A stretch of 64,000 nucleotides of DNA from Blastococcus aurantiacus (GTDB taxonomy: Bacteria > Actinomycetota > Actinomycetes > Mycobacteriales > Geodermatophilaceae). Shown here piece after piece: positions 8,915 through 34,543 of this stretch; the first letter of the stretch is position 1, and each line of letters starts with the position of its first letter. A model generated the notes under the pieces. The model did no database searches, was not told the DNA's origin, and was given only the letters and a program-made list of their open reading frames with translations. Made by a program: the position numbers and the translations under genes. The stretch covers positions 1 through 64,000 of the forward strand of contig NZ_FNBT01000011.1 of assembly GCF_900102425.1 (NCBI RefSeq), in the 5' to 3' direction.

Positions 8915-8930
8915 CTACTATCCGCTGTAG
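8915..8930 (+). promoter_or_regulatory. candidate BlaI-type operator, site A (DUF305 promoter)
   Basis: CTACTATCCGCTGTAG fits CTA-N10-TAG. A wider inverted repeat, CTACAGC (8905-8911) with GCTGTAG (8924-8930), overlaps it. The embedded TACTAT would serve as a -10 box for the DUF305 gene at 8998. Its first nine bases are identical to the ctaD-facing strand of site B. Confidence 0.55.
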
Positions 8931-8997
8931 TACCGGCGCTCAGCTGGAGTGCTCAGCACGGAGGGCCGACGCCCTGTGACCGACTGGGAGACAGCGC

Positions 8998-9654
8998 ATG
9001 ACCCGAGTCGCCGCGACGCTCGTCCACCTCGCCGCCGCTCTAGGGGCCGTGGTTCTCCTCGTCGGCTGCTCGACTGATCCGGCCGACCCCGGCGCCAACA
9101 GGGCGTCCGCCAACAGCCCCGACGTGGACCAGGCGCCAGGCAGTAGCTCCACAGCTGTGCGAGAGGCCTTTAACAACGCTGACGTGACCTTCGTGCAGGG
9201 CGCGATTCCGCAACAGCACGGCGCCCTGGCCGCGGCCCAGCTCGCTGAGGGGCGGGCCGGCGATGCGCGGGTGCACAGCCTCAGTAGGCGGATCGAGGCG
9301 GCACAGAAGTCCGACGTCGAGACGATGGCGGGTTGGCTGTTCGAGTGGGGTGAACCCCTGCCCGAAGATCAGGATCTTGCGAACCATGGGCCTGACGACA
9401 TCGTCGATGGACCCGGATGGGGGAGCCCGTTCGACGAGGCGTTGGCCCGACTTGAGGTCGCCAGGGGCGTCGACTTCGACCGCTTGCTCCTCCAGGCGAT
9501 GGTGCAGAGTCACCAGAACGCCGTCGACATGGCCGAGACCGAAATCGCCGAAGGGGCCTACCCCGCCGCGGTGGCTCTTGCTCGCGACATCGTCCGGTTC
9601 CGAACTGCGGAGATCGAGGAGATGAAGGCGCTCCTGGTCGACCTCGGCGGCTGA
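8998..9654 (+). CDS. DUF305 lipoprotein with altered metal-site motifs
   Basis: Exported four-helix ferritin-like DUF305 protein, 218 residues, with lipobox LLVGC (Cys24) for membrane anchoring. DUF305 proteins usually carry two paired HH motifs, as the second copy at 28537 does. Here the first is IPQQHGAL and the second is MVQSHQNAV, so one His of each pair is lost. The fold is recognisable from the repeated AL-LA-I--FR-AEI-EM pattern at the C-terminus. Start ATG 8998 follows GGGAGACAGCGC. Metal binding may be weakened or changed; this is inference. Confidence 0.85.
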   Translation: MTRVAATLVHLAAALGAVVLLVGCSTDPADPGANRASANSPDVDQAPGSSSTAVREAFNNADVTFVQGAIPQQHGALAAAQLAEGRAGDARVHSLSRRIEAAQKSDVETMAGWLFEWGEPLPEDQDLANHGPDDIVDGPGWGSPFDEALARLEVARGVDFDRLLLQAMVQSHQNAVDMAETEIAEGAYPAAVALARDIVRFRTAEIEEMKALLVDLGG

Positions 9655-9674
9655 CCTATGAGCAAGGCTCCCGT

Positions 9675-10138: not shown

Positions 10139-11896
10139 TCAGGTGGGGTCGGGGTCGTTCGGCCCCTGGCGCTTGCCGCTGCCCGGGACGAGCTCGCTGA
10201 CCCCGGCGTAGGGCTGGTGGCGCTTGCCGGCGTGCGCCTCGTCCTGGAGCCGGTCGATCAGGTGCGGGTAGTGGGCCTCGAACGCGGGGCGCTCGGAGCG
10301 GATCCGGGGGATCTCCACGAAGTTGTGCCGCGGCGGCGGGGAGGAGGTTGCCCATTCCAGGGAGTTGCCGTGGCCCCACGGGTCATCGCGCAGGGCGAGC
10401 TTCCCGTACTTCCAGGACCGCACCACGTTGTAGATGAACGGGATCACCGAGGCCCCCAGCACGAAGCTGAAGATCGTGGAGATCATGTTCAGCGTGGTGA
10501 AGCTGTCGGTGGGCAGGTAGTCCACGTAGCGGCGCGGCATGCCCTGCGCCCCGAGCCAGTGCTGCACCAGGAACGTGCCGTGGAAGCCCACGAACGTCAT
10601 CCAGAACTGCAGCTTGGACAGCCGCTCGTCCATCATCCGGCCGCACATCTTGGGGAACCAGAACGCCACCCCGGCGTAGGCGGCGAACACCACGGTGCCG
10701 AACACCACGTAGTGGAAGTGCGCGACCACGAAGTAGGAGTCCGACACGTGCCAGTCCAGCGGCGGGGAGGCCAGCAGCACACCGGTCAGCCCACCGAGCA
10801 GGAAGGTGACCAGGAACCCGACCGACCACAGCATCGGGGACTCGAAGGTCATCTGGCCGCGCCACATGGTGCCGATCCAGTTGAAGAACTTCAGCCCCGT
10901 GGGCACCGCGATCAGGTAGGTGAGGAAAGCGAAGAACGGCAGCAGCACCGCCCCGGTGGCGTACATGTGGTGGGCCCACACCGCCAGGGAGAGGAAGCCG
11001 ATGGCCAGCGTCGCGCCGACCATGCCCTTGTAGCCGAACAGCGGCTTGCGGGCAAACACCGGGATGATCTCGGTGATGATGCCGAAGAACGGCAGCGCGA
11101 TGATGTAGACCTCGGGGTGGCCGAAGAACCAGAACAGGTGTTGCCACAGGATCGGGCCGCCGTTCTCGGCGGAGAAGATCAACGAACCTAGATTCCGGTC
11201 GGCCAGCAGCGCGAGCAGCGCCGCGGTGAGGATCGGGAAGGCCAGCAGGATCAGGATGGACGTGACCAGAGCATTCCAGGTGAAGATCGGCATCCGGAAC
11301 ATCGTCATGCCCGGCGCGCGCAGGCAGACGATCGTGGCGATGAAGTTGACGCCACCGAGGATCGTGCCGAGACCGGAGACGGCCAGGCCGCCGATCCACA
11401 GGTTCGCGCCGACACCGGGGGTGTGCACGACGTCGGACAGTGGCGTGTAGGCCGTCCACCCGAAGTCCGGGGCGCCACCGGGGGTGAGGAACGAGGACAC
11501 CACCATCGTGGACCCGAAGAGGAACAGCCAAAAAGACAGCGCGTTCAACCGGGGGAACGCCACATCCGGCGCACCGATCTGCAGCGGCATGATCAGGTTG
11601 GTGAACGCGAAGAACAGCGGCGTCGCGAACATCAGCAGCATCAGCGTGCCGTGCATCGTGAACAGCTGGTTGTACTGCTCCGGGGACAGGAACTGCAGCT
11701 CCGGGCGACCCAGCTCGGCCCGGATCAGCATGGCCATCAGGCCACCCAGGATGAAGAACACGAAAGCCGTAACCATGTACATCAGGCCGATCGTCTTGTG
11801 ATCGGTCGTCCGCAGCAGGTTCGACAGGCGCGTCCCCTTGGTCGGCGTGGGGACCAGACCGGGTCGGGAGACAATCGGAGCGGGGGCGATCGTCAC
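10139..11896 (-). CDS. ctaD: cytochrome c oxidase subunit I
   Basis: Catalytic heme-copper oxidase subunit, 585 residues with about 12 membrane helices; reduces O2 at the heme a3-CuB centre. Ligands visible: His82 and His395 for the low-spin heme, His260 with cross-linkable Tyr264 (HPEVY) plus His309/His310 for CuB, His393 for heme a3. The K-channel lysine (TGLKFFNW, Lys336) marks an A-type oxidase. Start GTG 11896. No ctaC, ctaE or ctaF is adjacent, so this is a lone, probably second, copy that must pair with subunits encoded elsewhere. Operator site B lies just upstream, shared with the divergent blaI. Confidence 0.96.
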
Positions 11897-11961
11897 CGTC
11901 GCGACTCACTTCCACGAGTGGGCTGTGGCAACCGGCTGTGCGGGGAGCAAGCGGTCGCCCT

Positions 11962-11977
11962 CTAAGCTGGATAGTAG
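11962..11977 (-). promoter_or_regulatory. candidate BlaI-type operator, site B (ctaD/blaI intergenic)
   Basis: Read towards ctaD the site is CTACTATCCAGCTTAG, a CTA-N10-TAG dyad with TACTAT as a possible -10 box. It sits in the 141-base gap between divergent ctaD and blaI, the place expected for an autoregulated BlaI operator. A second palindrome, CTAGCTAG, follows at 11987-11994. Confidence 0.6.
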
Positions 11978-12037
11978 ACACGTCTCCTAGCTAGAGTCGT
12001 AGATCGAGGGGCTGAACGCCCCAGGCGGGCCCATCCA

Positions 12038-12463
12038 GTGGATCTGCGCAGCTCGAGCACGGGAAAGAAGGCGCGCGTGCGACCGTTCGGAGACCTCGAG
12101 GCAGCGATCATGGCCGAGCTCTGGGATCGGGGGCAGCCGGCGACTGTGCGGGACGTCCTTGCGGCGCTCAACGGGACTCGAAGCCTGGCCTACATCACCG
12201 TCATGACGGTGATGGACAACCTGCACCGCAAGGGGCAACTCGGGCGAGAGATGACCGGGCGCGCCTGGCTGTATCGACCGATCCGTACGCGGGCCGAGCA
12301 CGCGGCGGCTCTGCTGCAGGACGTGCTCGCGGACGCAGGAGACAGGCAGGCAGCGCTGATTCACTTCGTCGCCGACCTGGACTCCGACAGCGTCAGCCAG
12401 CTGCGGTCCGCGGTCGAGGCCGCTCGTCGGCGGGAGAACCAGACGCGAGGCGACACGGCGTGA
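12038..12463 (+). CDS. BlaI/MecI/CopY-family transcriptional repressor
   Basis: Winged-helix repressor of 141 residues, the family's usual size. The N-terminal domain shows FGDLEAAIMAELWDRGQPAT, VRDVLAAL, and YITVMTVMDNLHRKGQLGRE, the typical recognition-helix and wing pattern. The C-terminal helical part supports dimerisation. Start GTG 12038. The four-base overlap with the M56 gene gives a classic repressor-protease pair. In Mycobacterium tuberculosis the BlaI homologue controls blaC and also respiration-related genes, so a respiratory regulon here is plausible. No beta-lactamase gene is nearby. Confidence 0.93.
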   Translation: MDLRSSSTGKKARVRPFGDLEAAIMAELWDRGQPATVRDVLAALNGTRSLAYITVMTVMDNLHRKGQLGREMTGRAWLYRPIRTRAEHAAALLQDVLADAGDRQAALIHFVADLDSDSVSQLRSAVEAARRRENQTRGDTA

Positions 12464-13398
12464 TCGCCGGCCTGAGCCTGCTCGCGACCGCGAGCGTGGT
12501 CCTTGCGTTAGGACCACGCCTGGCGACCACGCCCTGGACTCAGCAGGCACCTCGCCTGGCCATCATGACGTGGCAGGCCTTGACGGTGAGCGTTGTCGTC
12601 ACGGTAGCGCTCGCTGGCGTGACGATGCTGATCCCGCTCACCGCTCTGGCCGGTGGTCTCGGTGGAATGGTGCACGCCTGCGCCGAGAGCATCACCGCGG
12701 CCTACGGCTCATCCCAGTTCCTGCCGGTCAAGCTGGTGGGCGCCGTCCTTGCGGGTGCTCTGCCGATATGGGTCGTCGTCTGCGCTGTCCGGGTCCTCTG
12801 CTCAGGCTGGCGGGATCGTCGTCGACTGCACCGCTCGCTTCGCCTGGTGAGCAGGGATGCCCTTCATGGCGTGGCGGTCATCGACTCGCCTGCTGCGGCT
12901 GCGTTCTGCGTTCCCGGTCGCAACGGGCAGATCGTCATCACGCGTGGAGCCCTCGACCGACTGTCGTCGCGCGAGCTGGACAGCGTCTTGGCGCATGAGG
13001 CGGCGCACCTTCGGGAGCGGCACATCTGGGCCCTCGCCCTGTCGGAGGTGCTGGCCACCGCCTTCCCCGGCGTCCGCCTCTTCGAGGTTGCTCGAGGTGA
13101 GACGCGTCAGCTCATCGAGCTGATGGCCGACGACGCCGCGGCCCGACAGGTGGACCGCGTCAGCGTGGCCTCGGCGATCGTCAGCTTGGTCGAGATGAGG
13201 GCCCCGACGTCCGCGCTGGCCATGGCGCAGGACGCGGCCGTGCTACGGGTCTCGCGGCTGCTCGATCCCCGGCCGCCGTTGGAGCCGTGGCGCTACCGGG
13301 CCGCGGCCTTCGGCGCCTCCGCTGTCATCCTGGTCCCGTTGCTCATCGCGGGATATCCGGCCCTGTGCGCGGCCCTCAGCGACCTCTGCAACATCTGA
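12460..13398 (+). CDS. M56-family membrane metallopeptidase (BlaR1-like protease part)
   Basis: Membrane zinc protease of 312 residues with the HEAAHLRERH active-site motif near residue 180 and four predicted membrane helices. It has no penicillin-binding sensor domain after the last helix, so the inducing signal is unknown. In the family the protease cleaves or inactivates the BlaI-type repressor encoded next to it. Start GTG 12460 overlaps blaI by four bases, and the stop overlaps the cupredoxin start in TGATG, so all three are likely one operon. Confidence 0.9.
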   Translation: MIAGLSLLATASVVLALGPRLATTPWTQQAPRLAIMTWQALTVSVVVTVALAGVTMLIPLTALAGGLGGMVHACAESITAAYGSSQFLPVKLVGAVLAGALPIWVVVCAVRVLCSGWRDRRRLHRSLRLVSRDALHGVAVIDSPAAAAFCVPGRNGQIVITRGALDRLSSRELDSVLAHEAAHLRERHIWALALSEVLATAFPGVRLFEVARGETRQLIELMADDAAARQVDRVSVASAIVSLVEMRAPTSALAMAQDAAVLRVSRLLDPRPPLEPWRYRAAAFGASAVILVPLLIAGYPALCAALSDLCNI

Positions 13399-13856
13399 TG
13401 GGGTCCACCTCGTCGCCCGGCATCCCTCGTCGGGCCGTCCTGATCGGCGGCTTGGCCGGCCTGGGGACGCTGGCGCTGGCTGCCTGCGGTGGCGACAGCA
13501 AAGCCCCGGAGAGCTCGGACGACGCGCCTCAGGGTGACGTGACGGTGCAGCCTGACGGTGCGCAGGAAATTACTGTGGTGGTCCGCGACGACTACGTCTT
13601 CTACCCATCGGCATTCACCGTCACCACCGGACTGGTCCGCATCACCGTGACGAGCGAAGCCGAGCAGATGGTCCACAACCTCGTGTTCACGCCCGGCGCC
13701 GGCCCCGTTGAGATCGACGAGGGGATCTCCATCCTTCCCGCGGGCACCACGGACACCTTCGAGTTCACCGTCGAGCGGCCCGGCGACTACGGGTTCGAGT
13801 GCTCGTTCCACGCCGCGCTCGGACAGATCGGCACGATGACCGTCACGGCGGTCTGA
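13398..13856 (+). CDS. cupredoxin lipoprotein with Gln in the axial-ligand position
   Basis: Small blue-copper-type protein of 152 residues, exported as a lipoprotein: PRRAVLIGG... LALAAC gives a twin-Arg-like signal and lipobox. The type 1 copper ligands are visible: His93 (EQMVHNLVF), Cys135 and His138 (ECSFH). The residue five after the second His, where plastocyanin has its Met ligand, is Gln143 (HAALGQIGT). This is the arrangement of stellacyanins, which have low potentials. It is co-transcribed with blaI and the M56 gene, so its level may be part of the same response. Role as electron carrier or copper donor to an oxidase is inference. Confidence 0.85.
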   Translation: MGSTSSPGIPRRAVLIGGLAGLGTLALAACGGDSKAPESSDDAPQGDVTVQPDGAQEITVVVRDDYVFYPSAFTVTTGLVRITVTSEAEQMVHNLVFTPGAGPVEIDEGISILPAGTTDTFEFTVERPGDYGFECSFHAALGQIGTMTVTAV

Positions 13857-13865
13857 GCCCGCCGG

Positions 13866-16545: not shown

Positions 16546-17196
16546 TCAGCTCGTCGCGATGAGCTCGAGGTCTTGAGCGATCTCAGCGGATGTGTCCCCC
16601 GCGGAGAACATCACGCGGGCGACATCGTCAGCCCCGAACAGCAGCAGGCTGGTCGCGTGCATCTCGCCGTTCGACTCGGCCAGCGGCACGCCGGCCGCGG
16701 ACTGGGCGGCCTCGACGGCGGCCTGCGAGCCGGTCAGGCCGACGAATCGGTTGGGCAGGCCCTGGTCGAAACGGGCGAGGTAGTTGCCGAGGAACTCCGG
16801 GGTGTCGCGGGCGGGGTCCGTGGTGGCGAATACGACCTGCGTCTGCGCGGCCACCTCATCCGGAACTGACTTCAGTGCCAGGGCGACGTCGGCCATCGTC
16901 GTCGGGCAGATGTCGGGGCAGTTCGCGTAGCCGAAGAACAACAGCGTCGGCGTGCCCGCGGTCTCCTGTGCGAAGGCGAACTCCGCCCCGTCCTGGTCGG
17001 TCAGGACGAAGTCCGGCCGCGGCTGGCCGTCCGCAATCTCTCGGCCGGCATAGGGCCCCTCGTTCGCGGAACTCGACACCGACGCGACGTGTCCCGCGGT
17101 GTGGTCCTCCTCGCCGCCCCCGCAACCGGTCAGAGCGAGGGCGCAGGCGAGGCCGAGAGTCGGGATGGCGGAGAGGACGGAGCGACGACTAGGCAC
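16546..17196 (-). CDS. SCO1/SenC-family copper chaperone lipoprotein
   Basis: Thioredoxin-fold protein that delivers copper to the CuA site of cytochrome c oxidase. 216 residues; lipobox LTGC (Cys25); copper motif CPDIC (Cys93, Cys97) and distal His180 (NGEMHATS), so all three Sco ligands are present. Start GTG 17196 has no good ribosome-binding site but has TAGACT seven bases upstream, so a leaderless transcript is possible. Operator site E overlaps this start. It is probably transcribed separately from the thiol-redox operon to its right. Confidence 0.94.
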   Translation of the reverse strand: MPSRRSVLSAIPTLGLACALALTGCGGGEEDHTAGHVASVSSSANEGPYAGREIADGQPRPDFVLTDQDGAEFAFAQETAGTPTLLFFGYANCPDICPTTMADVALALKSVPDEVAAQTQVVFATTDPARDTPEFLGNYLARFDQGLPNRFVGLTGSQAAVEAAQSAAGVPLAESNGEMHATSLLLFGADDVARVMFSAGDTSAEIAQDLELIATS

Positions 17197-17204
17197 GGTA
17201 GTAG
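17189..17204 (-). promoter_or_regulatory. candidate BlaI-type operator, site E (sco promoter)
   Basis: Read towards sco the site is CTACTACCGTGCCTAG, a CTA-N10-TAG dyad. It covers the sco start codon and the presumed -10 region, where a repressor would block a leaderless promoter. The outer bases extend the dyad to GACTA-N10-TAGTC. Confidence 0.5.
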
Positions 17205-17250: not shown

Positions 17251-17934
17251 CTAGATGTCGACGCCACGTTCGCGCAGCCATCCGGTCGGGTTGACGCGCT
17301 GCCCGTTGAGCCCGCCTTCGAAGACCTCGAAGTGCAGGTGCGGTCCGGTCGACTGTCCCCGATTGCCGAGCAGTGCGATGGTCTCGCCCGCGCGGACCGT
17401 CTGCCCCTTCTCCACAGTGATCTTGTCCATGTGCCCGTAGACGGTGACGTCGCCGTTGTCATGAAGGATGTAGACCGCCAGTCCGAATCCCTGGGCAGCA
17501 CCGGCGCGCAGGACGACTCCATCGGCGGCGGCGTACTCCGGGGTCCTCATCGGTGCGGCGATGTCCAGGCCGTAGTGCATGCCGCCCCACCGGCTGCCGT
17601 AGGAGCTGGTGAGTCGACCGTTGACCGGCATCACGGCCCTGGGGCGGGTGGCCTCCTCGCGAGCGGCTCGGGATGCCGCGAGTTCCTGGGCGCGGACGGC
17701 AATCTCTGCCTCGGCGATCTGTGGTCGCGGGTCGACCTCGGCCGGGACATCCCATGGGCCGTCGCCCAGCAGCGTCATGGAGGAAGACGTCTCGTGAGCG
17801 TGTGCGACCGGCGCGCCCAGTCCCCAGCCCCCCTCCCAGAGGCTTGCGGCGATCGCTCCGACGACGACTGTCGCCAGTAGCAACCGGGGTCGGTCGCACG
17901 GAACGGATCTCTTGGAGCGCCAGCGGCTGGTCAC
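17251..17934 (-). CDS. M23-family peptidoglycan endopeptidase
   Basis: Exported LytM-type metalloendopeptidase, 227 residues from GTG 17934. An N-terminal membrane/signal segment (LLLATVVVGAIAASLW) is followed by a short helical linker and the catalytic domain. Zinc motifs are visible: HYGLDIAAP (H-x3-D) and GPHLHFEV (H-x-H). The start overlaps the ccdA stop in GTGA; ATG 17952 is an alternative. It is the last gene of the dsbA-vkor-tlpA-ccdA operon, an unusual place for a cell-wall hydrolase. The second M23 gene at 24274 shares its catalytic domain. Confidence 0.9.
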   Translation of the reverse strand: MTSRWRSKRSVPCDRPRLLLATVVVGAIAASLWEGGWGLGAPVAHAHETSSSMTLLGDGPWDVPAEVDPRPQIAEAEIAVRAQELAASRAAREEATRPRAVMPVNGRLTSSYGSRWGGMHYGLDIAAPMRTPEYAAADGVVLRAGAAQGFGLAVYILHDNGDVTVYGHMDKITVEKGQTVRAGETIALLGNRGQSTGPHLHFEVFEGGLNGQRVNPTGWLRERGVDI

Positions 17935-18764
17935 AGTGAGGACGCCCCCCATCCGCTGGCGGCCAGCCAGGATCGCAGCCAGATCATCACGTAGTCCCAC
18001 GCCCCGGTTACCAGCAGAATGCCGAGCACGATGAGGAGGACGCCGCCCACTCGCATGACGGTGGGTGCATGGCGCCGCGCGAAGGCGGAGAAAGCGAGGG
18101 CACGGCGGAATCCGAGGGCGACGAGCAGGAACGGAATGCCGAGACCCAGGCAGTAGGCCAGGCCGAGAGCGGCTCCGCGAGCGGCGGAGGCCTCCGTGTA
18201 CGCGAGCGTGTTCACCGCCGAGAGGGTCGGCCCCAGGCACGGCGTCCAACCCAGCCCGAACACGACCCCCAGCACCGGGGCGCCGGCGAGCCCCGCCGGG
18301 GGACGACGGGTGATCCGGCGTTCCCGCTGGAGCCAGTGCAGCCCGCCCAGGAAGGCCAGCCCCATGAGGATGGTGACCACTCCCATGAGCCGCGTCAGCA
18401 GGGGCGCCCACTCGAGCAAGAGTCGACCCAGGCCGCCGAACAGGGCGCCGAAGGACACGAACACTGCGGTGAACCCCAAGACGAACAGCAGGGCGCCAGT
18501 TGCTACGCGACGGCGCTCGGCGACAGGTGTGGCAATCACCCCGGCGCCGGCGCGGGTCCCCCCGCCATCGTCGCCGGCGGGTGCCGGTCTGGCGCCGGCC
18601 TCGGCGCCGGTCAGTCCCGCCACGTACGCCAGGTAGCCGGGAACCAGGGGGAGGACGCAGGGCGAGGCGAAGCTGATCAGCCCGACCAGCGCCGCCACAG
18701 CTGCGGCAAGCAGCAAGGAGCCGTCGGTGACGATGCCCGCCAAGGAGTCGCCGAGGTCGCTCAC
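17931..18764 (-). CDS. ccdA: CcdA-family thiol-disulfide transporter
   Basis: Polytopic membrane protein of 277 residues that passes electrons from cytoplasmic thioredoxin to extracytoplasmic thiol proteins, needed for cytochrome c maturation. The paired transmembrane Cys are in SPCVLPLVPGY and GWTPCLGPTL. A longer linker after the first helices (about residues 55-85) is Gly/Ala-rich. Start GTG 18764 and the stop both overlap neighbours by four bases, so it is coupled to the TlpA-like gene before and the M23 gene after it. Confidence 0.94.
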   Translation of the reverse strand: MSDLGDSLAGIVTDGSLLLAAAVAALVGLISFASPCVLPLVPGYLAYVAGLTGAEAGARPAPAGDDGGGTRAGAGVIATPVAERRRVATGALLFVLGFTAVFVSFGALFGGLGRLLLEWAPLLTRLMGVVTILMGLAFLGGLHWLQRERRITRRPPAGLAGAPVLGVVFGLGWTPCLGPTLSAVNTLAYTEASAARGAALGLAYCLGLGIPFLLVALGFRRALAFSAFARRHAPTVMRVGGVLLIVLGILLVTGAWDYVMIWLRSWLAASGWGASSL

Positions 18765-19372
18765 CGTGGAGGCTCCTCAGCCTTCAGCGTGTCCAGGGCG
18801 CGACGCAGCTCTGATTCCGGCACGACGGCCACGTACACCGCTGCTACCTGTCCGGCCCCGTCGAGGAGGATCGTCGTGGGCACGACGTTGGCGGGAAAGC
18901 CGCGGAAGGCGAGTGCGACCTCGCCGCGAGGGTCGAACAGCGACGGGTACTCCGCGCCCACTCCCTCGAGAAAGGCCTCCGCGAGCTGGCGGTCGTCTTT
19001 GACGTCAACGCCCAGGAACTGGACGCCGTCGTCCTTGACGTCCTCGTAGACCGCCTGGAACTCGGGCGTCTCGACGCGGCACGGGGCGCACCAGGACCCC
19101 CAGAAGTTCATGACGGTGATGTCGCCGGCCAGGGACTCCGAGTCGAACTCCGTCCCGTCGAGGAGCTCGCCCCCGAAACCGGGGGCAGTCTCTCGGGCCT
19201 CGGCCGGGATCACCTCACCCAGCGGGGTGCTCTCGTCGAAGTCGAAACTGCCGGCGTCTTCGGTCGACGTGCTCGCGTTGCTTCTTGCCTCGCCCGAGCA
19301 AGCGGTGAGGGCCAGCATCGCGGCGAGGCCGATGACGGGTAGCAGGCGTCGAACGGTTCGGTGGTCAGCCAA
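18761..19372 (-). CDS. TlpA/ResA-like thioredoxin lipoprotein
   Basis: Membrane-anchored thioredoxin-fold reductase, 203 residues, lipobox LTAC (Cys25). Active site WCAPC at Cys94 and Cys97, and the cis-Pro loop is in FPANVVPTTILLD. Such proteins reduce apocytochrome c or Sco-type thiols with electrons from CcdA, whose gene follows with a four-base overlap. A second TlpA-like gene is in the resB operon at 31349. Confidence 0.93.
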   Translation of the reverse strand: MADHRTVRRLLPVIGLAAMLALTACSGEARSNASTSTEDAGSFDFDESTPLGEVIPAEARETAPGFGGELLDGTEFDSESLAGDITVMNFWGSWCAPCRVETPEFQAVYEDVKDDGVQFLGVDVKDDRQLAEAFLEGVGAEYPSLFDPRGEVALAFRGFPANVVPTTILLDGAGQVAAVYVAVVPESELRRALDTLKAEEPPR

Positions 19373-20039
19373 CGAGGGAACTCCAGTACAGCCAGAACCG
19401 CTCCAGGACAGCGGCGACGATGAGCAGGAACCAGGCGGTGAGGACGACGCCGTGCGCGCCGGTGGCAGCCGACGCGACCGCGCGCACCCGGGCCGGCATC
19501 CGAGGCGCGACGGCGGTCAGGTTGTGCAGGGTGACGTACCAGAACGCCGGGATGGTCACCGCCCAGACGACCATGCAGTACGGGCAGAGCGCTTCGATGC
19601 GGTACAGGCTGCTGTAGATCAGCCAGTGCACGAAGACGACGGCTGCAGTGGCGCCTACCTGGAGTCCCGCCCAGTACCACCCGGCCAAGCGCGCCCCGGC
19701 CAGCAGCGCCGCGCCGGTGGCGGCTACGACGGAGAACCCGACGACCCCGAGCAGGGGGTTGGGAAAACCGAACGCCTCGGCCTGCTGACTGGCCATGACC
19801 GAGCCGCAGCTGAGGATCGGGTTGAGGCTGCACGTCGGCACGTAGCTCGGATCCGCCAACAGGGCGTACTTCTCGACTGCGAGCACGAACGAGGCGACAA
19901 GTCCGGTCAGGCCACCAAGTAGCAGCAGCCAGGCAAGGGCACGCGCTGGCCTGCCCGAGTCTTCGTTTGGAGCGTCCGGCCCACCCCGTCCCGGCGCGGA
20001 AGCCGGCGACAACACAGGTTCAGCCGGCGAGCGCAGCAT
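19365..20039 (-). CDS. vitamin K epoxide reductase (VKOR) family protein
   Basis: Membrane quinone reductase of 224 residues that reoxidises DsbA-type proteins. The four expected Cys are present: loop pair Cys70/Cys78 (TCSLNPILSCGS) and active-site pair Cys152/Cys155 (CPYC). About five membrane helices. It overlaps dsbA by 20 bases and the TlpA-like gene by eight, so oxidising (DsbA-VKOR) and reducing (TlpA-CcdA) branches are encoded in one transcript. VKOR is the usual DsbB substitute in actinobacteria. Confidence 0.94.
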   Translation of the reverse strand: MLRSPAEPVLSPASAPGRGGPDAPNEDSGRPARALAWLLLLGGLTGLVASFVLAVEKYALLADPSYVPTCSLNPILSCGSVMASQQAEAFGFPNPLLGVVGFSVVAATGAALLAGARLAGWYWAGLQVGATAAVVFVHWLIYSSLYRIEALCPYCMVVWAVTIPAFWYVTLHNLTAVAPRMPARVRAVASAATGAHGVVLTAWFLLIVAAVLERFWLYWSSLVG

Positions 20040-20753: not shown

Positions 20754-20769
20754 CTACGAAGCTACATAG
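20754..20769 (-). promoter_or_regulatory. candidate BlaI-type operator, site C (dsbA/ctaG intergenic)
   Basis: Read towards dsbA the site is CTATGTAGCTTCGTAG, a CTA-N10-TAG dyad. The right part AGCTTCGTAG is identical to that of site H. It lies in the 313-base gap between divergent dsbA and ctaG. I see nothing else in that gap besides this site, site D and the ribosome-binding site of ctaG. Confidence 0.5.
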
Positions 20770-20924
20770 GAGAAGGTACAGGGATCCCTGCTCGTCTAGC
20801 GCTGCGCGTACGGGCTCCGCGAGTCGTTCGAGGTACTCGGTCTACGTCGTCGGCTCCCGGCTCCGCCCGAGGGTCGGCGTGGCGACAGATCGCTGTCCAT
20901 GGTCGGACGACGCTCGAGAGCACT

Positions 20925-20940: not shown

Positions 20941-20974
20941 CCATGTCCGTTCAGTCGTCTCGAAAGGGGTAGGC

Positions 20975-23183: not shown

Positions 23184-23756
23184 TCAGGCGGCGCCGTCGG
23201 GCAGAACCCGCCGGATGAGAGACGGCTGGCCCGCCGCCTGGAGCTTCACGACCTCGCCCGGCTGCGGCGCAGCGATCATCTGGCCGTCTCCGACGTAGAT
23301 GCCGACATGGTCGATCCCTGGCCGGGACGGCGAGTAGTCGAAGAACAGGAGGTCCCCAGGTTGGGCCTGCTCAAGAGAGGGGACCGCTCGACCAGCGGTG
23401 GCTTGCTGGGCTGACACGCGGGGGAGTTCGACGCCCTGGCTCCGGTAGACCAGCTGGGTAAACCCGGAGCAGTCCAGGCCCTTGCTGGGATTTGTTCCTC
23501 CCCACAAGTACGGCACCCCGAGGTACTCCTGTGCCTTCGTCACGATCGCTGCACCGGCCTTCGTGCCGCTTGCCGATGCGGCGCTCGTCGCGGGCGCGAC
23601 CAACGGTGAGGCCGACGCCGCCGGCGTGGGCGTCAACCCGGCGGCGAGTGCGGCACCAGCCCAGCCGGCCCGGCTGGCCGCCGTCGACGTCGCGAAGGAA
23701 GCGAGCTGCCCTTGGATCTGGACGATCCGCGACTGCACCTGGGCCAGGCCATCCAC
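23184..23756 (-). CDS. NlpC/P60-family peptidoglycan hydrolase
   Basis: Cysteine peptidase of 190 residues from GTG 23756. An N-terminal helical segment (DGLAQVQSRIVQIQGQLASF) is followed by a Pro/Ala/Ser-rich linker and an NlpC/P60 domain. Catalytic Cys is in GLDCSGFTQLVY, His in DHVGIYVGDG, with a third polar residue in MIAAPQPG. It cleaves peptidoglycan stem peptides in this family. No classic signal peptide is seen from this start, which is uncertain; an upstream TTG is possible. Operator site F lies about 80 bases upstream. Confidence 0.87.
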   Translation of the reverse strand: MDGLAQVQSRIVQIQGQLASFATSTAASRAGWAGAALAAGLTPTPAASASPLVAPATSAASASGTKAGAAIVTKAQEYLGVPYLWGGTNPSKGLDCSGFTQLVYRSQGVELPRVSAQQATAGRAVPSLEQAQPGDLLFFDYSPSRPGIDHVGIYVGDGQMIAAPQPGEVVKLQAAGQPSLIRRVLPDGAA

Positions 23757-23789: not shown

Positions 23790-23835
23790 CGGGACAAGGT
23801 CCCCGCCCGGCGGCGCGGGCAATTCCAGATCACGA

Positions 23836-23851
23836 CTACGGAAGCTAGTAG
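23836..23851 (-). promoter_or_regulatory. candidate BlaI-type operator, site F (nlpC promoter)
   Basis: Read towards nlpC the site is CTACTAGCTTCCGTAG, a CTA-N10-TAG dyad with TACTAG as possible -10 box. It sits in the 517-base gap between divergent nlpC and the M23 gene, about 185 bases from site H. Confidence 0.52.
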
Positions 23852-24036
23852 CGCGCCATGGAGGGTGTGGAAGGCTCGCCGTGCACCCGTGGCCGCTCCG
23901 TGGCTCATGCGACGAATGGGGACCCGTGGTGCAGGCGGCTCGTGAACCGTGCGCCGCGAGTTGTGCCTCAAACTGTGGCGCCGGGGCCCGGCCGCTCGCG
24001 GCAAGGCTGGCGAGCCCCGTTATCTTTTCGTGACAA

Positions 24037-24052
24037 CTAGCCAGCTTCGTAG
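24037..24052 (+). promoter_or_regulatory. candidate BlaI-type operator, site H (M23 promoter)
   Basis: CTAGCCAGCTTCGTAG, a CTA-N10-TAG dyad, lies about 70 bases upstream of the c-di-AMP riboswitch, where the promoter of that leader is expected. Its right half AGCTTCGTAG is shared with site C. Confidence 0.5.
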
Positions 24053-24119
24053 TACGGTTCCGTCCGGTCCGTGGCGAGCCGCGCTTCTCGATCCGAGAGC
24101 CTCGTACGGACCCCGCCGA

Positions 24120-24255
24120 ACTGCACGTGTCGCACGACCGTGCAGACCGGGGACCCAACGTTCCCCTGGGGTGAATCCTCGGTCCGCGCTCGCGCGCACC
24201 GAGGTAGGGCGCCTTCTGCCCGAACCCGTCAGCTAACTCGGTAGGCGGCGAGGAG
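24120..24255 (+). ncRNA. c-di-AMP riboswitch (ydaO-yuaA type)
   Basis: The conserved sequence blocks of the ydaO class are present in order: GGGGACCCAACGTTCCCCTG followed by GGGGTGAATCC (24148-24178), a variable stem (CGGTCC ... CACCGAGGTAGGGCG), and GAACCCGTCAGCTAACTCGG with TAGGCG (24222-24247). The leader ends in GGCGAGGAGGAACGGAG just before the M23 gene. In actinobacteria this riboswitch class commonly controls cell-wall hydrolases and turns genes off at high c-di-AMP. The exact 5' boundary is estimated. Confidence 0.93.
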
Positions 24256-24273
24256 GAACGGAGAATCGCCGCC

Positions 24274-25539
24274 TTGGCGACGCTGCACAACCAGTCCTTC
24301 CGCACTCCAGTCGTCCCCTTCGCAGTCGCTTCCGAACCGGGCCACAGTGACCGACGTTTTCGTGTCTCCCGAATGGGATCGGCGCTCACGCGCCGGCGGC
24401 GCACCGGCGCTGTTGCTGCCATGACAGCGCTTCTGGTTGGTATGGGGACCGCGACTGCCCTTGCTGCCCCGGCCGCTCGGCTGTCGGAGCACGACGTCGT
24501 GACGGCTGAGGTCGAGAGGATCTCAGAAATGGTCTCGGCGGCCGAAGATGACCTCGAGAAGTTCACTGTCGAGGCAGAGGCCGCGGCCGATGCTTCTCGA
24601 GCCGCGAAGGCGGCATTCGCCGACGCCGAGGCGAAGGCAGCCGCCGCCGCTGCCCAGCTGGAGTCGGCCCGCGCGGCGGTCGACCAAGCGCAGGACGATG
24701 CTGCCGCCCTGGGGCGGGAAGCTTTCATGGGTGGTGCCTCCCCGACTGATTCGGCCGCCGCGTTGCTGGACGCTGCGGGCCCCGCCGAGATGCTGGAGCG
24801 GGCCGCGACGCTGGATCTCTTGGGCGAGGATCGCGCGGAGCGGCTGGCGATGCTCCAGTCGATGCGAGGCACGGAGGAACGCGCGGACCGGGAAGCTCGG
24901 GCGGCGGTCGCGGAGCGCGACGCGGCGGTGCGCGCCTCGGTGGAGGCCGAAGCCGCTGCGGAGGTGCAATTGCAGGCGTCCAAGCAGGCGTACGACGCCG
25001 TGGCCGCCCAGAAACTCTCTTTGGACCAACAGCTCCGCGACGCAGAAATCGAGCTCTTGGCAGCACGAGGGGTGGCGAATCCGTCCGCCGTCCGGGATCA
25101 GGAGCAGCGAGCTGAAATAGCGCAGGCACGCGCCGGTACTGCCGCCCTCGTGGCCGGCCGGGTGACGTCCTGCTACGGGAGCCGGTCGGGAGCCATGCAC
25201 AACGGCGTCGACATCGCTGCCCCGATCGGCACGCCCATCTACGCCCCCGCGGCGGGTGTGGTGCTCGACGCCGGACCGGCGAGCGGCTTCGGTCTCGCCG
25301 TCTACGTCCAGCACGCCGACGGCACCATCACCGTGTACGGCCACATCAACCAGTACTTCGTGCAGGCAGGCCAAGCGGTCGCCGCCGGTCAGCAGATCGC
25401 CGAGGTGGGCAACCGGGGCCAGTCCACCGGCCCGCACCTGCACATCGAGACCCATCAAGGTGGGCTGTACCAGAATCGCGCGAACCCTGTGCCCTGGTTG
25501 GGCGCCCGGGGAATCACGCTCGGCGGAAGTTGTGGATGA
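24274..25539 (+). CDS. M23-family peptidoglycan endopeptidase with coiled-coil domain
   Basis: Secreted LytM-type endopeptidase, 421 residues from TTG 24274; ATG 24373, which begins MGSALTRRRRTGAVAAMTAL, is an equally likely start and gives a tidier signal peptide ending LAAPA. A long Ala/Glu/Asp-rich coiled coil (about residues 75-285) precedes the catalytic domain with HNGVDIAAP and GPHLHIET. The architecture resembles EnvC/RipB-like or Rv-type hydrolases needing activation. It is preceded by the c-di-AMP riboswitch and operator site H, giving two layers of control. Confidence 0.9.
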   Translation: MATLHNQSFRTPVVPFAVASEPGHSDRRFRVSRMGSALTRRRRTGAVAAMTALLVGMGTATALAAPAARLSEHDVVTAEVERISEMVSAAEDDLEKFTVEAEAAADASRAAKAAFADAEAKAAAAAAQLESARAAVDQAQDDAAALGREAFMGGASPTDSAAALLDAAGPAEMLERAATLDLLGEDRAERLAMLQSMRGTEERADREARAAVAERDAAVRASVEAEAAAEVQLQASKQAYDAVAAQKLSLDQQLRDAEIELLAARGVANPSAVRDQEQRAEIAQARAGTAALVAGRVTSCYGSRSGAMHNGVDIAAPIGTPIYAPAAGVVLDAGPASGFGLAVYVQHADGTITVYGHINQYFVQAGQAVAAGQQIAEVGNRGQSTGPHLHIETHQGGLYQNRANPVPWLGARGITLGGSCG

Positions 25540-29786: not shown

Positions 29787-31352
29787 TCAGCGGGACACCG
29801 GCTCCGATTCCGACGCCACGGTTGTGTCGCCCGTGCGCCCGGCACGGCGGCTGACCGAACTGGCGATCAGCATCGACGCGAAGAGGAGGACCGGGAGATC
29901 GCCGGTCCGCGTGTAGAGGGTGAGGGTGGTGTGAAGAGGGACCGTCGCGGTGAGCAACTCAGGGGTGCCGAGCTGTCCCCGCCCCACCACCTTGCCGTCG
30001 GGCAGGATGATCGCGGTGTAGCCGGTGGGTGCGGCCTGCAGGACGGCGCGGTCGGTCTCCCGGGCCCGCATCCGGGCCGCCGCCACTTCGGTGGCCGGCA
30101 CCTCCTCGGTGGTGTACGAGGCGGCGTTGGTCGGCACCAGCAGGACCTGGCCGCCGGCGGTGACGGCTGCCCGGGCGCGGTCGGCGAAGAAGACCTCGTA
30201 GGAGATGACCACACCCAGCGGTCCCGCGGGTGTGCGCAGCAACCCGGGGCCACGGCCAGGGACGGCGTCCCGCGGTACGAGTGCGGTCATGTCGGACACG
30301 CGCTCGAACAGACCGCGGGCCGGGATGTACTCCCCGAACGGGACCCGGTGCGCCTTCTCGTAGCGACCCACGATCCGGCCATCGGGTGACCAGGCCACTG
30401 CGGCGTTGCGAAAGCGAGTGTCTTCGGACTCGGTCACCCCCGCGACGACGGTCGCGCCGGTGCGCCGAGCCAGTGCCGCGACGCCGCCCGCCTCACGCGA
30501 GGTGGCCACCGATCCCGTCACGGCGATGCTGCTCTCCGGCCAGAGCAGCAGATCCAACTCCTGCGGAAGGTCGTCGCTGACAGCGAACAGGCGCTCGGTC
30601 ACTGCCTGTTCATCCGATTGGACGGCGGGGATGCCACGCGGACCGCCGCCTTGCGCCAAGGCCGCTCGCAGCTGGCCGTCCGGCGCGTCATCGGGCGCAG
30701 CCAACACCACACCCATCGTGCTGAGGGCTGCCACGGCGCTGGTGGTCATCAGCTGACGAATCCGTCGGCGGGCCGTGAACAGCCCGGAGATCGCCGCCCC
30801 GGCACCGGTGGCGAGCGCGACGACGAGGAGGGAACCGCCGAGCGGCGCCGCCGCGGCGAACGGTCCGTCCAGCTGCCCCAGCGCAATGCCCGGAATGGGG
30901 AAGCCGCCGAACGGGAACCGAGCGCGCGCGGCCTCCAGCGCCACGAGTGCAGCCGGGACCGTCCACCACCGTGCCGGACGGGGATCGATCAACAGCATCG
31001 CGGCAGCGAACAAGCCGACCTCGAGCACCAAGACGGCGGCGAAGCCCGCCGGGTGGAAGTCGATGAGCCAGGAGAGGGTCGGCCCGAAGAAGCTGAGGCC
31101 GGCGGTCGCGCCCAGGACCAGCCGCTGCCGCCATGACAAACCGACCAGTGCCCAGGTGAGGACGGCGACGCCGATGGGGGCCAGGTACCACGCCGTTCGA
31201 GGCGGCATGCTGACCGCCAGCAGAGCACCTGCGCCCAGTGCGGCGAGGAGGCGGCGCACGCCGGGCAGCCACCGGGCACGCAGACCGAACCGGGACCCTG
31301 GTGTCGACTCCCGTCCGATGGCCGTTGAGGCCCCGTCCTCCACGTGAGTCAT
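29787..31352 (-). CDS. apolipoprotein N-acyltransferase (Lnt)-like protein, Cys nucleophile replaced by Ser
   Basis: 521-residue membrane protein with about six N-terminal helices and a nitrilase-like (CN hydrolase) domain. Lnt transfers an acyl chain to the N-terminal Cys of lipoproteins. Glu273 (LLWPESS), Lys333 (YEKAHRVPFGEY) and Glu341 match the catalytic Glu267, Lys335 and Glu343 of Escherichia coli. The nucleophile position (Cys387 there) is Ser384 here (VVISYEVFF, codon TCC). Either Ser serves as nucleophile, or this protein has another role. It overlaps the TlpA-like gene by four bases, in the resB operon, and many island products are lipoproteins. Confidence 0.85.
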   Translation of the reverse strand: MTHVEDGASTAIGRESTPGSRFGLRARWLPGVRRLLAALGAGALLAVSMPPRTAWYLAPIGVAVLTWALVGLSWRQRLVLGATAGLSFFGPTLSWLIDFHPAGFAAVLVLEVGLFAAAMLLIDPRPARWWTVPAALVALEAARARFPFGGFPIPGIALGQLDGPFAAAAPLGGSLLVVALATGAGAAISGLFTARRRIRQLMTTSAVAALSTMGVVLAAPDDAPDGQLRAALAQGGGPRGIPAVQSDEQAVTERLFAVSDDLPQELDLLLWPESSIAVTGSVATSREAGGVAALARRTGATVVAGVTESEDTRFRNAAVAWSPDGRIVGRYEKAHRVPFGEYIPARGLFERVSDMTALVPRDAVPGRGPGLLRTPAGPLGVVISYEVFFADRARAAVTAGGQVLLVPTNAASYTTEEVPATEVAAARMRARETDRAVLQAAPTGYTAIILPDGKVVGRGQLGTPELLTATVPLHTTLTLYTRTGDLPVLLFASMLIASSVSRRAGRTGDTTVASESEPVSR

Positions 31353-32071
31353 GGCGCACTGGCCCCCGCTGCGGCGCTGGCGACGAGCTGCTCGAGCCGA
31401 GCGGCGGATACCGGCCCGACCTGCCGATCGACGACGCGTCCGTCGGCGGCCACAGCGAGGGTGACCGGCAACCCCGGCACTGCGAGGGCCGTCAGCAGGG
31501 CCTTGTCCTGGTCGATGACGTGCGCGTAGGTCACCTCCAGGCCGCTGAGCAGCGACGCGGCGGCCGAGCGGGTGTCTTGGGTGTTGACTCCCAGATAATC
31601 GACTTCGCCGCCGAAACGCTCGTACGCCGCCTGCAGCAGTGGCATCTCCTCGCGGCAGGGGGCGCACCAGCTCGCCCACAGGTTCACCAGGACCGGTCGG
31701 CCGCCCAAGTCCTCGAGAGCCACGTCCATGTCGCCCGCCAGGCAGGGCAGCCGCAGTGCGGGCACGCCGGCCGCACCGCCGACCGTGGCACCGTCGGCGG
31801 CGAAGGACCCGCAGCCGGCCACGTCGGCGGGGACAGGCACGACACTCGCCTCGGCGTCTGAGGTGTGGCTCGCAGGGCCCAAGGCGCAGCCGGTCACCGC
31901 GATGGCGACGATGACCGACGCGACCGACCGGCGGAGCCGTAGCCGGTGGGCGATCGCCGAGCGGGACCTGATCGCCGTGGCGAGGGGAGACAGGAGCAGG
32001 CCGGGTCGGGACGAGGCACGACCCTCTGGGCGGGGCCAGAGCCGGGGGAGCGTGCCCGCGACACGTCTCAC
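31349..32071 (-). CDS. TlpA-like thioredoxin lipoprotein
   Basis: 240-residue membrane-tethered thiol reductase. Lipobox VTGC (Cys62) follows an unusually long N-terminus, so the true start may be downstream. Active site WCAPC at Cys136 and Cys139, with cis-Pro in VPGLPVTLAV. Extra Cys at about 87 and 110 may form a structural disulfide. It is coupled by four-base overlaps to resB before and lnt after it. Together with ResB it probably keeps the apocytochrome CXXCH motif reduced for heme attachment. Confidence 0.92.
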   Translation of the reverse strand: MRRVAGTLPRLWPRPEGRASSRPGLLLSPLATAIRSRSAIAHRLRLRRSVASVIVAIAVTGCALGPASHTSDAEASVVPVPADVAGCGSFAADGATVGGAAGVPALRLPCLAGDMDVALEDLGGRPVLVNLWASWCAPCREEMPLLQAAYERFGGEVDYLGVNTQDTRSAAASLLSGLEVTYAHVIDQDKALLTALAVPGLPVTLAVAADGRVVDRQVGPVSAARLEQLVASAAAGASAP

Positions 32072-33705
32072 GGCGTGCTGACCGCGTTGCGGTCGTCTGC
32101 CGCGCGTGGCTTCGCCGGCTCGTACGCGGGCAGGTTGGCGAGCACCGCGTCCAAACGTTCCTGGACGTCGCCGCTCCCGCCTCGGGCGAGGCCCGCAAGT
32201 GACACCGTGGTCAACCGGCCGCCGCCGGAGCCGGCCAGCTGCGGGCCGGTGATCCGCGCGAAGACGCGTTCTCGGGGCACGAGCAGGGCGACCAGCAGCC
32301 CGAGGAGCATGGTGATCGCACTGATCAGGACCGCAACCTGTCCCGGGTCGTGGGAGACCTGAAGGGAAGCGAACTCTCGAAAACCGTCGAAGCGAACGAC
32401 TGTGCCGTCCTCGAAGGTCGCGGTCTGTCCGACGCTCAGGTTGGCCTCGCCGATCCGGCCCAGCCTGCCCTGGTCGATCAATGTCTGGTCCAGGGAGAAC
32501 ACCGACTGCGGGTCACCGGCGTCCAGGCCTAGGTAGCCGCGGTAGCCGATGACGGCTACCTGCGGATTGAGCGGTCGTGCGTCCACCGACGTCAGGACGC
32601 CGCCCTGGACCAGTCCTGTGGGGGCGAAGAAGCCTTCCAGGGCGACGCCGTCGCCGGACCCGTCCCCGAGGTCCGGCAGCTTGACCACACCTTCGCTGGC
32701 GAAGGTGGTGCTGTCCCGGGGCAGGAACGGGGCCGCCAGCTGCTCGAAGATGGTGCCGTCGGCCAGCGTCACCGTGAACAGGGGAGTGAAGCCGTGCCCC
32801 GTCACGTACAGGCGGTCGCCCTCGGAGCGGAACGGGTCGTTGACCCCGATCGTCGTCTGCCTCGTCGGCGCGCCCGGCCGGTCTTGAACGCCGATGTCCG
32901 CGGTGAAGGAGGCCGGCGTGCCGTTCAGCTCGTAGGTGGCGCGGAAGTCTTGAAGATCGAAGCAGAGCGGCGTGAGTGAGCTCTGGTCGACCAGAGGTCC
33001 GGCGACGTACCGGTCGTACCGCTGAAACGAGTTGCAGAAGCCGTCGCCCTCGGTGACCAGAATGCTTCCCTCGTATCCCCACATCTTCCCGCTGGCCAGC
33101 GAGACAAGAAGCGCCAGGAGCGAGAGGTGGAAGACGAGGTTGCCGGTCTCCTTCACCCGGCCGCGCTCGGCCGAGATCTCCACGTCGGTCTCGGTGTTAC
33201 GCCTGACCACCCGAAAGCGCGCCGCCCGCAGATCGCTCTCCAGCTGCTCGGCCACGGCCTCCGCGGGCATCGACACCTCTTGGGCGGCGTGAACAGGGAG
33301 TCGATGCAGATGCCGTGGCACGGCCGGCGGGTCGGCCCGTGAGGCTCGTAGGTGCTCGATGCAACGCGGCACCAGGCAGCCGATCAGCGAGATGAACAGA
33401 AGCAGGTAGACCGCGGAGAACCATGGGCTGGAGAAGACGTCGAACACCCATAGCGTGTCGAGGACGGGGGCGAGCTCTGGGTTCTCCCGGAAGTACCGCG
33501 AGACCGCGCTCGGAGTCAGCGACCGCTGCGGGAACAGCGATCCGGGAACAGCCGCCAGCGCCAGCAGGAAGAGCAGCACCACCGCCGTCCGCATGCTGGT
33601 CAACCAGCGCCAGCGGCGCACCAGCCACCGTCCGAGCCGGCGCGGCAGGAAGCTGCGGGCAGCAGCAGGCGGCCGTGCCTCCGGGGGGGCGTGCAGATCG
33701 GTCAC
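32068..33705 (-). CDS. resB: ResB-family cytochrome c biogenesis protein
   Basis: System II cytochrome c synthase partner of CcsB, 545 residues from GTG 33705. Three N-terminal helices (WLTSMRTAVVLLFLLALAAVPG first) plus a large extracytoplasmic domain and a last helix (VAVLISAITMLLGLLVALLVP) match the family. The start is chosen for CAGCGGGGATCTG upstream; an in-frame GTG at 33828 would add 41 Arg-rich residues with no ribosome-binding site. Operator site G lies 181 bases upstream. It heads the resB-tlpA-lnt operon. Confidence 0.94.
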   Translation of the reverse strand: MTDLHAPPEARPPAAARSFLPRRLGRWLVRRWRWLTSMRTAVVLLFLLALAAVPGSLFPQRSLTPSAVSRYFRENPELAPVLDTLWVFDVFSSPWFSAVYLLLFISLIGCLVPRCIEHLRASRADPPAVPRHLHRLPVHAAQEVSMPAEAVAEQLESDLRAARFRVVRRNTETDVEISAERGRVKETGNLVFHLSLLALLVSLASGKMWGYEGSILVTEGDGFCNSFQRYDRYVAGPLVDQSSLTPLCFDLQDFRATYELNGTPASFTADIGVQDRPGAPTRQTTIGVNDPFRSEGDRLYVTGHGFTPLFTVTLADGTIFEQLAAPFLPRDSTTFASEGVVKLPDLGDGSGDGVALEGFFAPTGLVQGGVLTSVDARPLNPQVAVIGYRGYLGLDAGDPQSVFSLDQTLIDQGRLGRIGEANLSVGQTATFEDGTVVRFDGFREFASLQVSHDPGQVAVLISAITMLLGLLVALLVPRERVFARITGPQLAGSGGGRLTTVSLAGLARGGSGDVQERLDAVLANLPAYEPAKPRAADDRNAVSTP

Positions 33706-34543
33706 CAGATCCCCGCTGTCGCCTGGCCACTGCCGGGCGTAGAGGGCTGCGGCTGGAATCCCGGGTTCATGCTCACGGTGGCTCCTCCGACGTGGGGTTG
33801 CGCAGCGACGGCGGCCCGTGCGCGTCACGCCCGGCCCAGTCGTCGTGCTCGAACGGCGGCACGTCGGCCGGGCCGCATGGACACGCTACTGCGCGTCTTA
33901 GTAGACAGCGGGGGCGGATGTCGTGCTCGAGTGCTACGCCTTGGGAGCCAGGACCGAGCAAAGCCGTGGGCCGCGATTGGCGCAAAAAGACTGTTGAGGG
34001 TGCGCCGGCGGTGGCGACCCGCATCGTTCCTCTGCGCAGCGCGGTCCATGACTACACCGGCGAGGTCGCCGAGGGAGGCGACGCGGCTCATCGATCCCGC
34101 CGGCCCGCCAGCGGTCGGCATCATCCGGAGGGGTCTTGCTCGACACGTGGCCCGCCGTCTCGGCGGGCATCGCGCCCTGGAGGGTCCCGTGCTCGACAAG
34201 GGGCATCGGTGCTTTGGGAAGCCAGAGGTCGTTGCTGTCCCACCCCGCCTTGATGCGTTCAAGCACAGGCCGATGAGCGCGACTCGGTGTCTAGCTGCCC
34301 ATGACAGCAGCAGAGGCGGCCGACGGAGCAACTGGAGGAAAACGGCAGGCTAGTGAGCAGCCTTCCGGATGGCTGTGCGTGGCTGCCCGAGCCGCTAGTC
34401 ACTCCCGGTCCACAGGTCGACCGGCATCCACAGATGGGAACCGTCGCCGACCGTCGGATATCTCGAGGGCTACACAACCAGGTACCCGCCACCCGTGGTC
34501 AGCGGGCGGATCGGTTGACGGGTCGAGCACTGGAGGTCCGACG
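33706..34543. other. non-coding segment between resB and integrase
   Basis: About 840 bases with no recognisable gene in any frame; open frames here are Arg-rich and lack coding bias. It holds operator site G and, from about 34411, the leader shared with the truncated integrase copy. Such a stretch is common between cargo and integrase in tRNA-borne elements. Confidence 0.55.
33886..33901 (-). promoter_or_regulatory. candidate BlaI-type operator, site G (resB promoter)
   Basis: CTACTGCGCGTCTTAG on the plus strand fits CTA-N10-TAG; a second offset dyad, CTACT-N9-AGTAG, extends to 33904. On the resB strand the tract reads CTACTAAGACGCGCAGTAG, with TACTAA as a possible -10 box. Confidence 0.5.

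Follow-up and report, generated by a model that had tools for sequence, protein, structure and literature searches.

The window analyzed here is a stretch of 64,000 nucleotides of Blastococcus aurantiacus DNA at the start of a contig (C7) of the 4.16-Mb genome. It contains a mobile-looking island in which a BlaI/MecI/CopY-family regulator, a membrane protease and eight copies of a 19-bp palindrome lie among genes for respiration, thiol chemistry, copper and the cell wall. The regulator gene blaI (12038..12463, plus strand, start at 12038 or 12077; PF03965) is followed by the gene of an M56/M48-like metalloprotease without a sensor domain (12460..13398, plus strand) and, directly 3' of it with overlapping gene ends, by a cupredoxin gene (13398..13856, plus strand; PF00127, PF13473), whose product has, judged by eye, a lipoprotein-like signal. 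Divergent to blaI is ctaD for cytochrome oxidase subunit I (10139..11896, minus strand; PF00115), one of three genome copies; the two others are 94% and 90% identical, and there is one further resB (63%). Oxidase assembly is represented by sco (16546..17196, minus strand, proposed GTG start; PF02630) and by ctaG, which lies with ccsB at 20879..23051 (plus strand; PF09678, PF01578). The cytochrome c assembly genes ccsB, resB, tlpA and dsbD and the disulfide genes dsbA and VKOR are found there and in two further clusters, dsbA-VKOR-tlpA-dsbD/ccdA-M23a (17251..20661, minus strand; PF13462/PF01323, PF07884, PF00578, PF13386, PF01551) and resB-tlpA-lnt (29787..33828, minus strand; PF05140, PF08534, PF00795/PF20154). 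The island also encodes a YcnI-like DUF1775 protein (7964..8704, minus strand; PF07987), a DUF305 protein (8998..9654, plus strand; PF03713) and a DUF326 protein; these three and the cupredoxin are proteins of copper-related types. Besides M23a, wall hydrolases are an NlpC/P60 protein (23184..23756, minus strand, start uncertain; PF00877) and a second M23 peptidase, M23b (24274..25539, plus strand, start at 24274 or 24442; PF01551), preceded by a cyclic di-AMP (c-di-AMP) riboswitch (24104..24262, plus strand; RF00379, 79.3 bits). An ArsR protein and a response regulator are encoded as well, and no beta-lactamase was found among 30 island genes scanned with Pfam profiles.

CTA-N10-TAG pairs occur eight times in the window, with 0.57 expected (standard deviation 0.70; maximum of 3) from 100 dinucleotide shuffles, a value well below the about four per 64 kb that an earlier note on this DNA had allowed for chance. 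Seven of the pairs had been listed in that note and are indeed where it had placed them, and the sequence sharing it saw between sites (CTACTATCC; AGCTTCGTAG) is correct by inspection; missing from it was the eighth, CTAGCTAGAGTCGTAG (11987-12002), which starts 25 bp from the site at 11962 in the ctaD/blaI gap. A scan of the whole genome for the same pair gave 22, of which 14 lie outside the island, and at that rate about 0.08 would be expected per 25 kb. With a matrix built from 127 sites of other genomes, the window being excluded, exactly these eight sites ranked first in the window, with 17.5 to 22.7 bits. The next-best match reached 10.4 bits and overlapped the end of a gene in the host part, and the expectation from simulated windows was 0.15 sites scoring over 12 bits with the same matrix. 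No site above 8 bits was present in three stretches next to islands in other genomes (L081, L083 and L085).

Operator 1 (8915..8933, 21.7 bits) is 65 bp before the DUF305 gene (8998) and 211 bp before the divergent ycnI. Operators 2 (11959..11977, 18.3 bits) and 3 (11984..12002, 17.7 bits), offset by the same 25 bp, lie in the divergent ctaD/blaI gap and hence, as predicted, in the promoter region of blaI itself, a position also found for 22 of 29 blaI homologues. Operator 4 (17186..17204, 19.7 bits) is at sco, operator 5 (20754..20772, 22.7 bits) between the divergent dsbA operon and ctaG, operator 6 (23833..23851, 19.7 bits) 77 bp before the called nlpC start, operator 7 (24034..24052, 18.4 bits) 52 bp before the M23b riboswitch, and operator 8 (33886..33904, 17.5 bits) before the resB-tlpA-lnt genes. 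According to the gene calls, seven of the eight sites fall between genes; the exception is operator 4, which covers part of the GTG start proposed for sco. Since the nlpC start is uncertain (the frame is open far upstream), the intergenic position of operator 6 depends on the called start at 23756.

The geometry of the site was derived from 28 non-redundant loci around BlaI homologues (520,832 bp), all from one family (f1) except L079; the near-duplicates L052, L053, L068 and L072 were dropped. Close BlaI relatives came by name from Blastococcus, Geodermatophilus, Modestobacter, Klenkia and Trujillonella, which we take to be genera of the family Geodermatophilaceae. CTA-N10-TAG was present 136 times in these loci, with 5.2 expected, and CTA and TAG were also found 113 times at N7 and 34 times at N13, but only 2, 2, 3 and 1 times at N8, N9, N11 and N12, respectively. 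Peaks at 7, 10 and 13 are what CTACTA-N7-TAGTAG would give as a palindrome whose outer arms are degenerate. Alignment of 135 distinct sites gave C-T-(A/C)-C-(T/G)-A, seven bases and the mirror half, that is, the 19-bp unit CTMCKA-N7-TMGKAG. The CTA-N10-TAG pair is real, but it consists of one outer arm and the opposite inner arm of a larger symmetric unit. The earlier suggestion that TACTAN is a fixed -10 box was not borne out: the last position of TANNNT is T in 31% of 111 oriented sites, and a -35 word of the TTG type at a fixed distance was not enriched in them.

In the 28 loci plus four flanks, 188 sites of at least 12 bits were found; 145 of them are at -40 to 350 bp before a recognized gene, and none is inside the gene stretches recognized by homology (252,444 of 600,832 bp). 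Since the matrix was trained on the family loci, site counts in these loci are not independent of it; those in the window and in the distant loci described below are. For orthologue counts, gene matches starting after residue 45 or less than 300 bp from a locus end were dropped. An upstream site was present for sco in 17 of 17 cases, dsbA in 12 of 12, M23a in 10 of 10, ctaD in 5 of 5 and resB in 4 of 4, followed by ctaG (9/12), ycf48 (9/14), lnt (5/8), tlpA1 (14/23), STAS (6/10), M23b (8/14), nlpC (2/3), ycnI (1/2), cupredoxin (6/13) and ccsB (2/13). Lack of conservation before orthologues had been named beforehand as grounds for giving up the regulon, and sco, dsbA, ctaD and resB were all positive. 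No upstream site was seen for VKOR (0/14), dsbD (0/23) and M56 (0/27), which are likely operon-internal genes; zeros for some genes fit such a position.

The palindrome is not confined to the family. We analyzed 70 distant loci, of which three are from plasmids and the other 67 come from the best 80 of 217 matches in named genomes, and found 153 sites of at least 17 bits compared with 0 to 1 in five simulations, with locus relatedness uncorrected. When an M56 homologue was present, 31 of 32 loci had at least two such sites; without it, two sites were found in only 3 of 38. Among the bearers of a BlaI-M56 pair with the palindrome next to it are Nocardioides, Arthrobacter, Actinomadura, Lentzea and plasmids, with perfect arms on plasmids of Rhodococcus erythropolis and Mycolicibacterium gilvum. 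For gene density and target counts, 36 of the 70 loci were used, picked by eye for having sites. Only 3 of 142 sites of at least 15 bits were inside called genes, which cover 78.1% of this DNA, so that density inside and outside genes is indeed unequal. After removal of BlaI itself, products below 75 residues and duplicates, 146 target genes were reduced to 107, and an equal number of controls (107) was sampled at random from the 438 eligible genes of the same loci. The target products contained NlpC/P60 (10), DsbA-like thioredoxin (6), CopC (6), BNR repeats (6), methyltransferases (6), ResB (5), AhpC/TSA (5), cupredoxin (4) and Lgt (3) families, whereas NlpC, DsbA and ResB were outside the first 25 families of the controls (lowest count shown, 2). 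Thus, the mix of thiol and cell wall targets postulated from the window recurs outside the family. In three Lentzea loci (L132, L135 and L146), operators precede genes that read, by eye, as CsoR-like; if so, the switch would be wired to copper export there. L116 (an Actinomycetes metagenome-assembled genome) and L119 (Actinomadura) have 12 and 10 sites of 17 bits, respectively, in 20 kb, and several of these sites precede genes that probably correspond to the methyltransferases counted among the Pfam families above, a target type for which we have no explanation.

The island regulator belongs to the BlaI family by profile (PF03965, 79.1 bits; cutoff, 22.6) and has no cysteine at all. The only solved chain that matched it by sequence was 2g9w (79.6 bits), presumably BlaI of Mycobacterium tuberculosis (Rv1846c). 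Within the family, the median number of CTA-N10-TAG pairs per genome is 26 where this BlaI is present (n = 29) and 13 where it is absent (n = 46; P = 2.7e-8, kinship uncorrected); 37 of 112 genomes lacked a BlaI result and were dropped.

The partner protein is a membrane gluzincin with an HExxH motif; it is BlaR1-like, and its structure model matched BlaR1 (8exs, 8exp). As expected from the earlier note, a beta-lactam sensor is missing: the protein has 312 residues, gave no penicillin-binding match in Pfam and ends six residues after the last helix. It has cysteines at positions 74, 150 and 310. Two of them, Cys74 (in the loop that joins helices 2 and 3) and Cys310 (in the C-terminal tail), are predicted to be outside the membrane, and this pair is present in 33 of 33 sequences (including the four near-duplicates). 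In 54 sequences picked from 120 listed, C74 and C150 were invariant and C310 was conserved in at least 90%. At the 31 operator-bearing distant loci, C74 was found in 28 and a cysteine within the last 25 residues in 29.

These data argue for the single BlaI-linked regulon that had been proposed, since the sites follow both the orthologues and the BlaI-M56 pair. We are confident, on the basis of sequence, that BlaI (12038-12463) would bind the eight 19-bp palindromes and control the island regulon. By analogy with the family, BlaI dimers on the operators would hold back the spare respiratory and envelope genes as well as their own gene (operators 2 and 3); stress at the outer face of the membrane would then open the partner protease, BlaI would be cleaved, and the gene set would be expressed. 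The BlaI-M56 pair is thus likely one switch for oxidase, copper, disulfide and cell wall genes. The signal may be copper or thiol stress outside the membrane. This is the least certain part of the scheme, and we consider it not quite an even bet. We favor sensing by the protease itself, in which Cys74 and Cys310 would either bind copper(I) or form a disulfide.

A second BlaI is encoded divergently to cydA (L087:10737-11084, which is C9:427737-428084 of the same genome; also L176 to L205). We counted palindromes in the 30 best-matching family loci among 86 genomes with a match. TCTAC-N5-GTAGA was present in the cydA-blaI gap in 30 of 30 loci, with two palindromes in 29 and one in the remaining locus, and the gaps contained 59 copies of CTAC-N5-GTAG and none at the other spacings from 0 to 15. 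The two operators have the CTA-N7-TAG core in common but differ in the arms, and the cydA-linked one is mostly tandem. The regulators differ in the stretch LAYTTVMTV (cydA linked) or ALTTVHTV (island), which is presumably the recognition helix. Related palindromes together with a differing helix region fit two paralogous repressors with diverged operators. Moreover, the cysteine pair of the island protease was absent from 29 complete cydA-linked M56 paralogues. The cydA-linked pair likely regulates cytochrome bd. Actinobacteria might have two sensorless BlaI-M56 relays side by side, one for each of two terminal oxidases: a core relay at cydA with TCTAC-N5-GTAGA and a mobile relay with CTACTA-N7-TAGTAG, the latter commanding a spare aa3 oxidase and cytochrome c, disulfide, copper and cell wall machinery, with the protease as copper(I)/thiol sensor via outer-loop and tail cysteines. 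We regard this wider scheme as possible but rather doubtful.

Several observations weigh against the regulon or its proposed signal. No upstream site was found for csp (0/5), CDF1 (0/12), CDF2 (0/11), arsR (0/12) and tlpA2 (0/13). DUF305 had been counted among the targets and forms a target of one gene in the window, but the site is not conserved: none of its seven relatives elsewhere has one. M23a of the window lacks an operator, unlike its ten relatives. Furthermore, 17 of the 38 distant loci without M56 still carry sites of at least 17 bits (four in L125), and the Streptomyces plasmid pair at L169 is without any 17-bit site. CopC was found in 6 targets and 3 controls and AhpC/TSA in 5 and 4 (107 genes each); since both are common in controls too, part of the copper enrichment comes from the islands themselves and not from the operator. 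The loci were gathered by their BlaI, which puts BlaI beside the sites partly by construction, and another, always-linked DNA-binding protein is formally still a candidate binder. Finally, the cysteine-bearing loop has low model confidence (residues 60-69 below 50; blocks within 61-90 with means of 45 to 60).

If BlaI binds the palindrome, the signal could instead be cell wall damage, with the protease sensing lipid II or peptidoglycan fragments and the targets forming an envelope repair regulon. NlpC/P60 is indeed the top family of the 107 targets and outside the first 25 of the controls, Lgt was found in 3 targets, M23b and nlpC carry operators in the window, and a mycobacterial BlaI reportedly lowers ftsQ (PMC12565901). 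However, neither a penicillin-binding nor another extracytoplasmic domain is present in the 312-residue protease, and the conserved targets in the family are mostly oxidase, Sco and thiol genes. We consider this explanation unlikely. Irrespective of the signal, M23b is preceded by operator 7 and then by the c-di-AMP riboswitch, and this one wall hydrolase is likely under two layers of control, a BlaI-type operator and c-di-AMP.

A different possibility is that BlaI regulates itself and its neighbors merely to limit the load of acquired genes, with no specific environmental signal. The borders of the island bear on this. A tyrosine integrase gene (34301..35746, plus strand; PF00589) adjoins tRNA-Leu (35847-35932, minus strand), and the start of an integrase gene is found again as a fragment at 7814..7951 (plus strand), a 138-bp direct repeat of 34522-34659 with 91% identity (39 amino acids, 90% identical); it likely marks the inner border of a composite island. 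All eight operators are between fragment and integrase, and the NADH dehydrogenase subunit genes (727-7531; four checked by profile, two by eye) are outside this interval. The GC content at third codon positions is 0.77 to 0.92 in most genes up to about 35.75 kb (0.95 in ctaD), where the integrase ends, and 0.97 to 0.98 in the next two genes. With its integrase and the adjacent tRNA gene, the island is a candidate integrative element; a 27-nucleotide copy (96%) of the tRNA-Leu 3' end (35847-35873) is on a separate contig (C10:107071-107097) and is possibly a second attachment site. The contig opens with two exact 27-bp tandem copies (1-54), and the left end of the island may therefore be an assembly break. 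Of the pairs elsewhere in the genome, eight were scored with the matrix, and the best reached 13.1 bits, which also agrees with regulation confined to the island. One pair, C13:85324-85339, is 91 bp before another ctaD copy, nearly the distance of operator 3 to the island ctaD; with 0.1 bits, it is either a chance pair or a decayed site. Against a mere limitation of gene load, the conserved cysteine pair of the protease and the recurrent target themes point to a specific signal, and we judge this explanation improbable.

Even less probable is that another regulator of the island binds the palindrome and BlaI-M56 is merely carried along. Binding by BlaI is an inference, the loci were gathered by BlaI, and ArsR and a response regulator are at hand, but ArsR, the one other regulator examined as a binder, is encoded in only 9 of the 28 site-bearing family loci, whereas M56 and sites were found in 28 of 28. 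Moreover, the sites follow M56 across families, and a palindrome of related sequence lies in the promoter region of the paralogous blaI in all 30 of its loci. A chance or composition artifact, with TA-rich triplets being commoner in intergenic DNA, where these sites lie and A+T may be higher, is ruled out by the sharp spacing (136 at N10 compared with 1 to 3 at the neighboring spacings), the orthologous placement and the near absence of sites in shuffles and simulations.

The nearest known counterparts differ from this system in several respects. In the staphylococcal BlaI-BlaR1 and MecI-MecR1 systems (PMC7253601), the operator core is TACA/TGTA, which is not contained in CTMCKA-N7-TMGKAG. BlaR1 and MecR1 have a C-terminal extracellular penicillin-binding domain, which the island protease lacks although it has the gluzincin HExxH motif, and the targets in the island are respiration, thiol, copper and cell wall genes. 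CopY/CopR are of the same PF03965 family, and copper-related genes are also near the island BlaI; however, CopY carries CXC metal ligands at its C terminus and uses the operator RNYKACANNTGTMRNY (PMC7253601), whereas the island BlaI has no cysteine and another operator. In M. tuberculosis, ATP synthase genes and sigC are reported to belong to the BlaI regulon (PMC7924339, PMC5874750, PMC8265638), and ftsQ and, from the ATP synthase operon, Rv1303 are reportedly lowered when BlaI is overexpressed (PMC12565901). A connection between an actinobacterial BlaI and genes for energy metabolism and division has therefore already been published; the regulator described here differs in that it is in a mobile-looking island with oxidase assembly, disulfide and NlpC/M23 targets. 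A literature search found no description of this operator, of a mobile BlaI-M56 regulon of such content or of the cydA pair.

BlaI and M56 genes of actinobacteria bear names that refer to beta-lactam resistance. If the interpretation given here is true, one branch of them would instead be a transferable switch for respiration, copper, disulfide formation and wall hydrolysis, with a regulon that could be read from a genome by means of one 19-bp matrix. The paralogous system at cydA is well suited to ask which residues of the protein read which operator, and the island system would give a handle on what activates M56 proteases that have no sensor domain.

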